Of a stretch of 56,856 bases of DNA, positions 32,339 to 34,754 are shown piece after piece. The stretch comes from an uncultured Flavobacteriales bacterium (GTDB taxonomy: Bacteria > Bacteroidota > Bacteroidia > Flavobacteriales_D > Sanyastnellaceae). The translations under genes and the position numbers were made by a program. The stretch covers positions 1 to 56,856 of the forward strand of contig CALJFZ010000051.1 of NCBI GenBank assembly GCA_938074325.1, read 5' to 3'. Positions within the stretch are counted from its first letter, which is position 1, and each line of letters begins with the position of its first letter. The notes beneath the pieces were generated by a model. It saw only the letters and a program-made list of their open reading frames with translations. It ran no database searches and was not told the DNA's origin.

Positions 32339-33552
32339 TGAACGTTTGGAATGCAGAGGACTTCTCCGATGCGAATGTAATCGGTGATTTCGTTGATTTC
32401 TGCAATCCACTCAGGAGTTGTGCCCGGGTAGCGTTTTGATATGTTCCAAAGGGTGTCGCCTGCTTTGACTTCGTGCAGTAAACACGTGAACCCAGGAACG
32501 TATTCGGCTTCCTGTGGCGCCTCAGAATCAGTGGCGGTCGGCGCAACGGGTGTATGTTTTTCAACGACGGTTGGGGCAGGGGTGCCAGTTAACTCATCTG
32601 GCATTCGAACGTTGTACGCGTCCAATTCTCCGCAGTTGAGGGTTGATCCAGTCCACCAAGGGATGAATTGAGTGATGGCATCCGGCGCAAATCGCCCACC
32701 TGCGATCAGGGATTCGCGGTTCCAGTCCTCCGTGCATGTTGGTGCAGACCAGTTGTTTGAAGTCGCTAACCAGTCGAGGCTAAAGTCTTCCAACTTCGTG
32801 TTGACCATCAATCGGCAAATGACCTTGTACAAGGCAAGGAGTTCATCCAAATTTTCATCGTACCCAACTTTGCCTGTCCACCTTGTGGCATAGGCCATGC
32901 CACGGAAGTAGGCAACCAACACCCGATGGGGATCGTTCGGGAATCGCCGCTGCAATTTTTCCAATGTCCGAACGGCCGCCAAAGTGGACGAACTGGGCAG
33001 GCCGCGTTCGTCGACTGTGCCGTCGATGCGCAATCCAGCCTCTACCGCATCTGCTTTCGTATTCTGCCAAAGACCTGCACGCTTCCCGTCGCTGGGAACA
33101 GCCGCATGATTCAGTTGCGAAACAACAGCGGGAATCCAGCGAAACGCGTACGGCAAGTCCGTTTGCATCCAGATGGCATCAATCTGTGGCTTGTACAGGC
33201 TGGAGAGTCCGTTTAATTGGTGCAGTCTTTTGGCGTTTTCAGAAATGAGCATCTGCATGCATTCATTCTCAAGGGACCGGTCCTGCCCCCACGGTTGCAG
33301 AGCCAATTCCAATGCATCGAGTGCCGGTACGTCTTGCCGCAGCGCCGGCATTTCGGATGCCGCATCATCGACGGTAGCTTGGAACAATGCGTAGTCGGCC
33401 AATTGCACCCGTTGATCAAAGTCCTTCTCCCATGAAATGAGGTTGGTCTGGCCGAGGAGGGGGGAATGCACTTGAACAAGTATGAGCAGTGCAACCCAAA
33501 TCAAGGGGCCAAATGGTCTTGTGATGTGCAATTTGGGTGCCTGGTCGGCCAT
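32335..33552 (-). CDS. Transglycosylase-like LysM protein, catalytic Glu not seen
   Basis: 405 residues. Signal peptide LIWVALLILVQVHSPLLGQ. The region from SSLYKPQIDAIWMQTDLPYAF to VLVAYFRGMAYA follows the MltD/SLT lysozyme-like layout, including RAGLWQNTKADAVEAGLRID and DERGLPSSSTLAAVRTL. Where active enzymes have LPVVESxF, this protein has IPAVVSQLN, so the catalytic Glu is absent. The C-terminus is a LysM domain (EVKAGDTLWNISKRYPGTTPEWIAEIN). I infer a peptidoglycan-binding pseudoenzyme heading the O-acetylation operon. A TACCTTTG box lies 4 bases before the ATG. Confidence 0.85.
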   Translation of the reverse strand: MADQAPKLHITRPFGPLIWVALLILVQVHSPLLGQTNLISWEKDFDQRVQLADYALFQATVDDAASEMPALRQDVPALDALELALQPWGQDRSLENECMQMLISENAKRLHQLNGLSSLYKPQIDAIWMQTDLPYAFRWIPAVVSQLNHAAVPSDGKRAGLWQNTKADAVEAGLRIDGTVDERGLPSSSTLAAVRTLEKLQRRFPNDPHRVLVAYFRGMAYATRWTGKVGYDENLDELLALYKVICRLMVNTKLEDFSLDWLATSNNWSAPTCTEDWNRESLIAGGRFAPDAITQFIPWWTGSTLNCGELDAYNVRMPDELTGTPAPTVVEKHTPVAPTATDSEAPQEAEYVPGFTCLLHEVKAGDTLWNISKRYPGTTPEWIAEINEITDYIRIGEVLCIPNVQ

Positions 33553-33556
33553 GAGT

Positions 33557-33564
33557 CAAAGGTA
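33557..33564 (-). promoter_or_regulatory. -7 box of the four-gene O-acetylation operon, leaderless spacing
   Basis: TACCTTTG on the minus strand is an exact TAnnTTTG match followed by 4 bases and the ATG at 33552. No -33 TTG at the usual spacing. Confidence 0.5.
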
Positions 33565-33655
33565 TCTCAAGGTCGTCAAATGGCGATGAACCGGAGAGAA
33601 ATGCTCACGAATCACCATATATTAAGACGAATCTATATTATAATTATACGAAACC

Positions 33656-33686
33656 TTTGAATTAGGTGTTGAAAAAACTATATTTG
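33656..33686 (+). promoter_or_regulatory. Full -33/-7 promoter upstream of a structured RNA
   Basis: TTTG (33656-33659), 19-base spacer and TATATTTG (33679-33686) match the Bacteroidota housekeeping promoter exactly. The surrounding 33610-33690 stretch is AT-rich. The predicted start is near 33691. The rest of 33565-33655 shows nothing else I can support. Confidence 0.65.
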
Positions 33687-33690
33687 AAAT

Positions 33691-33773
33691 AGGTCATGGA
33701 ACGATAAGTTCTTGGAGGACCTAGTTGTGAATCGTAGTGAAGCATCTGCAACGGCGGATGCTTCATTTTTTTT
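33691..33773 (+). ncRNA. Candidate short RNA or transcription attenuator leader
   Basis: Between the promoter at 33656-33686 and an intrinsic terminator at 33739-33773 lies about 80 nt with no open frame of note. The 5' end folds: AGGTC (33691-33695) pairs with GACCT (33718-33722), enclosing GAAC (33699-33702) and GTTC (33708-33711) around GATAA. No plus-strand gene ends upstream. It is either a standalone small RNA or the attenuated leader of the SRPBCC gene at 33822, which has no promoter of its own that I can see. No known family is recognised. Confidence 0.55.
33739..33773 (+). terminator. Intrinsic terminator
   Basis: GAAGCATCTGC (33739-33749) pairs with GCGGATGCTTC (33754-33764) in an 11-bp stem with one G-U pair and an AACG loop, followed by A and eight T (33766-33773). 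There is no T-run on the other strand, so it acts on plus-strand transcripts. Confidence 0.8.
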
Positions 33774-33821
33774 GCGCCTTTTTTCGCTGAACATTTCCAG
33801 CGGAACCTCAGTTGTTGGGAT

Positions 33822-34286
33822 ATGAAATTGCATCGATTGGAAACGCAGCAATGGCTCCCTTTAAGCCTGCAGGACGCGTGGGACTTTTTCAGCATCCCTG
33901 AAAATTTGGACCGAATCACGCCACCGGATATGTCTTTCGAAATTTTGGCCGGAGCTGGGGAACGAACCTTTGCTGGACAGATCATTTCGTACAAAATCCG
34001 TCCGCTTCTGAATATCCCCATGAGATGGGTTACCGAAATTACCCAGGTAAAAGAAGGCGTATACTTCATTGATGAGCAACGTTTTGGTCCGTATAAATTT
34101 TGGCACCACGTGCACAAGTTTACCGAAAAGGATGGCGGCGTCTTGATGGAGGATACCTTGCACTATGCCCTGCCCGGTGGGCTTCTTGGCGAAATCGGTG
34201 GCGGATTTGTTCACAAAAAAGTGCGGGGCATTTTCGAGTTCAGAGAAGAAGAGCTGAACCGAATCTTTCCACCAGCTACCAAATAA
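33822..34286 (+). CDS. SRPBCC/START-fold protein
   Basis: 154 residues with no signal peptide. It fits the SRPBCC (Bet v1-like) superfamily: LPLSLQDAWDFFSIPENLDRITPP at the start, then TFAGQIISYKI, the MRWVTEITQVKEGVYFIDEQ strand pair, GPYKFWHHVHKF and a long C-terminal helix GGGFVHKKVRGIFEFREEEL. The fold binds small hydrophobic ligands or lipids; the ligand is unknown. The start codon lies 48 bp after an intrinsic terminator and no promoter is visible between, so expression may depend on read-through. Confidence 0.85.
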   Translation: MKLHRLETQQWLPLSLQDAWDFFSIPENLDRITPPDMSFEILAGAGERTFAGQIISYKIRPLLNIPMRWVTEITQVKEGVYFIDEQRFGPYKFWHHVHKFTEKDGGVLMEDTLHYALPGGLLGEIGGGFVHKKVRGIFEFREEELNRIFPPATK

Positions 34287-34289
34287 TCG

Positions 34290-34754
34290 CTAGTGGCAAA
34301 GCACGTTGGCTGCCCAGGCTGCCATCAATAAATTCGGTTTGGCTTTTGCTTCGAAGCCGAGCGAGGCAATGTAGCCTGCTGAGGCACTGATAAGCTTATG
34401 CGATGGGTATTGGGGGTCGGAATTGAAGTCCAAATCAATTTGTCCCACCCGAATGTTGCACTCTTCCAGGATGAGGTTGGCCAACGCCACGCTTCGTTCG
34501 GTTTCACCCCAGAGTTTGGTCCATAAATCGGTGATTTTAGGTACCCGTTCCTTTCGGTAGATGACATGCGCCCCATTGTTGGGGAAACGGAACACGACGG
34601 TCGTGACGTAGACGGTGTAACGCTTGTAATTCTGGCTGTCGCACCCCACATGGATTTCCAGACTCCGTTCGCTGCACATGCTAGCTATGTAGTCACACAC
34701 GTCGTGATCTACGTGGCCTCCCATGACTTTGAATTGCCGATCTTTTGGATGCAT
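34290..34754 (-). CDS. YkuK-like (DUF458) RNase H-fold protein
   Basis: 154 residues. LEIHVGCDSQNYKRYTVYVTTVVFRFP gives the first strands with the first acidic residue, and VGQIDLDFNSDPQYPSHKLISASAGYIASLGFEAKAKP matches the DUF458/YkuK family, placed in the RNase H-like superfamily (PF04308). A nuclease role is possible but unproven. Expressed alone on the minus strand; TAACTTGA lies 4 bases before the ATG. It converges on the SRPBCC gene with a 3-bp gap. Confidence 0.85.
   Translation of the reverse strand: MHPKDRQFKVMGGHVDHDVCDYIASMCSERSLEIHVGCDSQNYKRYTVYVTTVVFRFPNNGAHVIYRKERVPKITDLWTKLWGETERSVALANLILEECNIRVGQIDLDFNSDPQYPSHKLISASAGYIASLGFEAKAKPNLLMAAWAANVLCH

Follow-up and report, generated by a model that had tools for sequence, protein, structure and literature searches.

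Nucleotides 33691–33773 of a contig from an uncultured Flavobacteriales bacterium are best read as a member of a new family of trans-acting small RNAs (sRNAs) that pairs with, or is titrated by, terminator-adjacent 3′UTRs. We consider it likely that this stretch of the window (the whole 56,856-nt stretch of DNA that was analysed) encodes a stand-alone, promoter-driven, self-terminated sRNA that pairs in trans with 3′UTR sites next to terminators and alters the decay of its targets' 3′ ends. The RNA would thus probably regulate other messages through their ends instead of switching the adjacent gene. Starting from sequence alone, the analysis arrives at an RNA whose pairing region is invariant and at trxA as a specific partner in all readable genomes of one genus, so that terminator-adjacent pairing becomes directly testable.

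The anatomy of the gene can be read directly from the window (Table 1). An earlier note on this DNA had described a promoter, a hairpin, a terminator and a 48-nt gap to an SRPBCC gene, and on re-reading the sequence we found all of them at the positions it gave. Between TTTG and TATATTTG the promoter spacer is 19 nt. PMC9723704 places TAnnTTTG at −12 to −5; if this holds here, transcription would start at 33691 and give an RNA of 83 nt. The terminator stem is present but differs in length from the 11 bp given in the note: its arms, TGAAGCATCTGC (33738–33749) and GCGGATGCTTCA (33754–33765), form 12 bp with one G·U pair. Only 1 of 200 shuffles folds as well as the window RNA (z −3.4), and its linker has a mean unpaired probability of 0.87. 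Generic scans of 6 kb returned five sigma-70 promoters against 3.7 by chance and ten terminators against 6.6 by chance, neither above chance level, so the case against chance rests on conservation.

Table 1. Features of the predicted sRNA gene and its neighbour, in window positions.
Feature	Positions	Strand	Basis
−33 element TTTG of the sRNA promoter	33656–33659	+	Sequence; TTG 22–24 nt before the TAnnTT box in 41/47 members (count by eye)
−7 element TATATTTG	33679–33686	+	Sequence; TAnnTT form at the expected place in 46/47 members
Predicted sRNA transcript, 83 nt	33691–33773	+	Promoter geometry, covariation, terminator
Hairpin 1 (AGGTC...GACCT)	33691–33722	+	Structure conserved, sequence variable between genera; 8/9 scored pairs change on both sides
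Invariant linker GTTGTGAATCGTA, 13 bases, proposed pairing region	33724–33736	+	47/47 members; predicted unpaired; antisense to 3′UTR sites
GTGAAGCA, start of terminator 5′ arm	33737–33744	+	Extends pairing with longer trxA sites
Terminator hairpin	33738–33765	+	Sequence, scan, fold; 8/12 pairs change on both sides
Conserved loop region GCAACGGC	33748–33755	+	First seven bases in 47/47 members, last base in 45/47
U tract of intrinsic terminator, eight T	33766–33773	+	Sequence
Neighbouring SRPBCC-like gene	33822–34286	+	ATG 48 nt past the U tract; a neighbour, target status not established

Conservation of structure is strong. Both hairpins posited by the earlier note covary, with 16 of 21 pairs changed on both sides among 47 aligned members, an alignment that omits L006 (from G004, near-identical to L003), the copy in G011 (split over two contigs) and L102 (from G087, doubtful). 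Within the proposed stems 97% of cells pair; none of 500 shuffles scores as high on all five covariation measures, and the result also lies beyond all slid controls, with the proviso that the alignment was fitted to the structure and leans towards it. Hairpin 1 differs almost totally in sequence between genus g1, to which the window belongs, and genus g10, and the pairing is kept. This pattern bears on the idea that the RNA instead carries a short leader peptide, GUG AAU CGU ..., behind a GGAGG. That motif does lie 8 nt before the GUG in g1, g9 and one of the two g3 types; it is missing from g10 and from the other g3 type, which is also frameshifted, and changes across the family track base pairing, not codons. 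A leader peptide is therefore rejected on frameshift and substitution pattern, and we give it next to no credence.

The linker GUUGUGAAUCGUA and the loop bases GCAACGG are each identical in 47/47 aligned members. In a comparison within g1 (19 sequences), anchored on linker and loop and using the flanks for the background rate, mean pairwise identity is 0.99 in the −7 box and 1.00 in both linker and loop, against 0.49 in the promoter spacer, 0.43 in the 40 nt after the U tract and 0.31–0.49 over flanks and spacer generally. The models reward linker and loop bases, so members lacking them would be missed. We considered whether GCAACGGC is a generic terminator loop and rejected this: of the 19 distinct terminator-like occurrences of GCAACGGC among the loci scanned, 16 sit after the linker. 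A looser scan found GCAACGGC in 23 of 73 distinct terminators. The conserved loop, and the invariance of the linker across genera with differing partners, fall outside the present explanation.

Upstream of the sRNA promoter (window ~33600–33655 and the same place in relatives), 19 of 46 members carry a GACGAA-like motif, whereas 300 shuffles average 3 and never exceed 9; the member sequences are related to one another, and the motif is possibly a regulator site.

Among the genomes searched, the family has a narrow range. A DNA search found the RNA in 25 of 60 relatives, the weakest match (G044) being doubtful, and a covariance model matched 50 of 114 family genomes; setting aside one doubtful match (G087) leaves 49/114 in four genera, namely g1 (21/22), g3 (11/11), g9 (2/2) and g10 (15/17). 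The sole g1 genome without a match, G016, is 63% complete. A second model, applied to sampled genomes from the order (399) and the class (395), revealed no convincing member beyond the four genera. Weak order-level matches were rejected: they are terminators that lack the linker, except in L135 and L136, where a linker-like stretch has no terminator; six class-level matches outside the order of G000 and G044 contain no TTGTGAATC or GTTGTGA, and the ones inspected in alignment are terminators. Scanning named genomes with a sequence pattern returned 50 stretches, 49 of them in MAGs titled Flavobacteriales, Crocinitomicaceae, Bacteroidetes, Bacteroidia or plain bacterium. The fiftieth, L155 from a Lysobacterales MAG and the only match outside Bacteroidota, was discarded for want of a terminator stem, and the pattern was absent from viral contigs. 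Rfam 15 gave no match in the window at the gathering threshold, a permissive Rfam search of 33550–33830 returned just E-values of 2.6 and 7.4, nothing credible, and a literature search for the exact linker string found no match. With its own promoter, two covarying hairpins, its own terminator, a presence in four genera and no Rfam match, the element bears out one of the two readings offered by the earlier note, that of a new small RNA; judged by its sequence, it is a stand-alone bacterial sRNA gene in having its own promoter and intrinsic terminator and in being conserved and non-coding.

Two other elements came to light during these searches. In another family, f9, the regions around the RNA-model matches of three genomes (L130, L131 and L132) have a strongly conserved segment in common. 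It is predicted to contain two hairpins, has a terminator loop reading GCTACGGC and may be a further RNA gene; Rfam had no match for the L131 segment. Four g3 genomes contain a second, shorter element on the minus strand (L094 2024–2082, L095 2018–2076, L096 1954–2012, L097 2022–2080), which has GUUGU and the GCAACGGC loop in common with the sRNA (GCAGCGGC in L097), lacks hairpin 1 and lies 51–61 nt before a gene whose product in L094 has S4 and pseudouridine synthase domains.

The second reading in the earlier note was a conditional attenuator, or leader, controlling the SRPBCC gene downstream. The protein has one PDB sequence match (3oh8_A, E-value 1.2e-5) and none in Pfam or NCBIfam. The arrangement in the window invites this reading: gene and RNA share a strand, the terminator ends 48 nt before the start codon and, as the note stated, no other promoter is visible by eye in the gap; an SRPBCC gene is also the same-strand downstream neighbour in both g1 and g3. 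As a conserved function, however, attenuation of SRPBCC fails, since the downstream neighbour changes between genera. In most g10 loci the RNA is followed by an RNase H-like gene and then by a weakly similar SRPBCC gene, L164 and L180 having neither behind the RNA, and in both g9 genomes a convergent DUF4953 gene lies behind it, the DUF4953 match ending 60–101 nt from the linker start; in G029, the g9 genome searched for SRPBCC, that gene is on another contig. Nor did inspection by eye show an antiterminator fold: the one match seen between linker and loop is a 4-bp GUUG/CAAC, and the predicted fold keeps the terminator. An attenuator would, moreover, leave the invariance of the linker unexplained. 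We therefore regard control of SRPBCC by attenuation as very improbable, with expression of the gene by read-through possible in g1 and g3.

A tandem RNase H–SRPBCC pair occurs at most g10 loci and in four RNA-less genera, where in G032, G022, G036 and G025 RNase H directly precedes SRPBCC (4 of 8 loci looked at), with no homologues of hairpin 1 seen upstream of RNase H. In the window (33822–34754) SRPBCC and the RNase H-like gene are convergent, as opposed to tandem elsewhere, so a rearrangement may have placed the sRNA beside SRPBCC. In G029 3 nt separate the end of the convergent reading frame from the 3′ end of the RNA match (L051 3224–3228), and the RNA's terminator may thus serve both strands. 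Most g10 members (L105–L116) show, within about 60 nt after the terminator and before the RNase H gene, a recurrent ACTTGTGGAGAAGC-like sequence (by eye) that resembles the DnaA box consensus.

Evidence for action on other messages comes from antisense matches to the linker. Allowing one mismatch, its reverse complement has 71 non-self sites in 21 g1 genomes versus 24 for the reversed control; 53 of the 71 were read, and one further flagged site, L285, has a doubtful terminator. The variant TGCGATTCACAAC, which pairs with one G·U, occurs at 11 sites in g1. Nine of them lie in the short space between a stop codon and an intrinsic terminator: in six genomes the gene ahead of the site encodes a thioredoxin, in three a secreted protein. 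Looking for exact CGATTCACAACG matches across 114 genomes, we obtained 63 non-self sites and read every one (11 g3 sRNA self-matches were not counted as sites). Placement between stop codon and terminator was found for 15 of 36 sites in RNA-bearing genera versus 0 of 27 in RNA-less ones, one of the latter (L302) ending at a contig edge 16 nt past the site; homologous sites are counted several times and are not independent, so the Fisher value of 5e-5 overstates the difference. In the placed sites the stop codon lies 7–28 nt before and the terminator within about 21 nt after. Sites in this position also follow dnaA in two g3 genomes, a gene for a small coiled-coil protein in three g3 genomes and a SusD-like gene in one g10 genome. 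Pfam, with one member of each examined, supports the thioredoxin, Bac_DnaA_C, SusD-like and T9SS sorting tail assignments; it returned nothing for the coiled-coil product, a label of our own.

A search with a 14-mer antisense and up to two mismatches in eight genomes gave 77 non-self sites versus 49 for the reversed control, by itself an unclear result. Among 207 terminators, from loci partly chosen for their sites, 23 reach −20 kcal/mol with the g1 linker as against 0–6 with ten shuffled linkers. On many sites of g1 the g3a linker equals or outscores the g1 linker, its higher G content being the probable reason, so that exchanging linkers between genera does not test coevolution cleanly. Over 400 kb of G010 and G014 taken without selection, none of 33 terminators or 3′UTRs and none of 360 starts beats shuffled linkers; partners are therefore probably few. 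Across the genera few are known apart from trxA, and none in g9.

The thioredoxin gene, here called trxA, was sought by protein in 30 genomes, leaving out the distant paralogues L385 and L386; a contig end truncates L367 (G003). All 18 readable g1 loci, representing 17 of 17 genomes (G007 has two trxA loci, perhaps through contamination), carry an antisense site of 15–20 bp just before the trxA terminator. Twelve of the 18 lack the 12-mer that had led to trxA and were found via the protein only; a one-base deletion in their sites, which typically read TGCTTCACTGC-ATTCACAAC, put them beyond the reach of the 12-mer search. With the 23-nt segment around the linker, whether from the window or the genome's own, predicted g1 duplexes reach −23.6 to −30.3 kcal/mol, compared with −6.4 to −12.6 kcal/mol for the g1 segment on eight trxA loci of other genera, which are without a site, and −9.2 to −16.9 kcal/mol for five g3, g9 and g10 loci with their own segment. 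When each genome's own sRNA is used, 0–4 of 200 shuffled UTRs pair as well. Complementarity to g1 trxA in relatives of the window's genome is thus conserved, extended and beyond chance. Local alignment of the whole sRNA to trxA spans 31–70 gapped columns in 11 of 16 genomes and 15–36 in the remaining five; the alignments run into the sRNA's terminator arm and towards hairpin 1. In the one cofold made, sRNA and trxA site of G004 gain ~14 kcal/mol over their separate folds. Counting against the pairing, the trxA sites are on average no more than half unpaired in their own folds (mean 0.50 over 17 genomes). Protein searches found no match to trxA in the assemblies G000, G017 and G021. G000, the window's own genome, is 87.9% complete, and its sole CGATTCACAACG site does not adjoin a terminator; the trxA partner is accordingly shown for relatives, not for the genome of the window itself. 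A literature search on Bacteroidetes sRNAs and trxA turned up nothing related.

From these observations we infer that the RNA is produced and pairs in the cell, and that pairing has an effect. In the proposed mechanism hairpin 1 would cap the 5′ end and the terminator the 3′ end, and the linker with the start of the terminator 5′ arm would pair with antisense sites that a few mRNAs carry in their 3′UTRs, immediately ahead of the terminator. The main partner in g1 would be trxA mRNA, through a 15–20 bp core that in many genomes lies within a longer imperfect match, forming an antiparallel duplex with each RNA's terminator nearby. Pairing would probably alter 3′-end decay of the trxA mRNA, either by protecting it from exonucleases or by RNase III cleavage of the duplex.

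The main rival to an effect on decay is sponge action, in which the trxA and other 3′UTR sites titrate the sRNA and the real targets, such as translation starts, were not found. Processed mRNA 3′ tails can act as RNA sponges, and the sites lie at just this end of their messages. The G004 cofold also opens the sRNA's own terminator hairpin. Set against this, no start-codon site beats shuffled linkers among the 360 starts sampled, and the single good one, in G015, is not seen in the orthologues found, which leaves room for targets elsewhere; on balance we think it unlikely that the sites are only sponges. The G015 site itself (L202 434–447) is a 14-bp linker match with one G·U over the AUG of a hydrolase lipoprotein gene, and was rejected as a target because it was not seen in ten other orthologous starts.

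The complementarity could also be a side product, for example where part of the sRNA gene was long ago copied in inverted form behind trxA, the RNA being an ordinary trans sRNA with undetected 5′-end targets or a protein partner. Sites at trxA are absent in the g3, g9 and g10 genomes examined, so the cross-genus invariance of the linker needs other partners, and a linker that is invariant in genera whose trxA has no site is what this account would expect; the longest trxA matches, too, span hairpin sequences, as a copy would. Yet two distinct site forms keep complementarity in 17/17 genomes despite differences in length and sequence of the trxA 3′UTR, and the same antisense core is found at the same place in unrelated genes of other genera. 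We give the side-product account a minor, though appreciable, chance and retain pairing with terminator-adjacent 3′UTRs as the preferred reading. A broader form of that reading, of which we are less than evenly persuaded, is that tail-to-tail pairing is the family's regular mode, with targets (trxA in one genus; in a second, dnaA among others) gained and lost through short 3′UTR sites in a microRNA-like manner.

Precedents for pairing between a trans-encoded sRNA and an mRNA 3′UTR are RsaI–icaR in Staphylococcus aureus and Spot 42–hilD in Salmonella, the only two trans-encoded sRNAs named as acting on 3′UTRs in the excerpted text of PMC7821165. They resemble the present case in this mode of pairing; hosts and RNAs are unrelated, and that excerpt names one 3′UTR per sRNA, whereas the sRNA described here has sites within about 21 nt upstream of the intrinsic terminators of several genes, the pairing being predicted. 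Closer in host is Rfp18 of Flavobacterium psychrophilum, a flavobacterial sRNA that likewise stands alone, is predicted to be strongly structured and has targets in trans (PMC9723704); compared by description, it differs in that its third stem-loop is predicted to pair with metalloprotease mRNAs. MasB and BatR of Bacteroides thetaiotaomicron are also short trans-acting Bacteroidota sRNAs (PMC10994844, PMC10861873). As described in the extracts of these two papers, MasB binding needs positions 41–50 and 69–74 and its site lies ~40 nt inside a coding sequence, and BatR has sites over most initiation regions. The Bacteroidota sRNAs Rfp18, MasB and BatR are thus described, in these extracts, with other kinds of site than the terminator-adjacent 3′UTR sites proposed for the new family.
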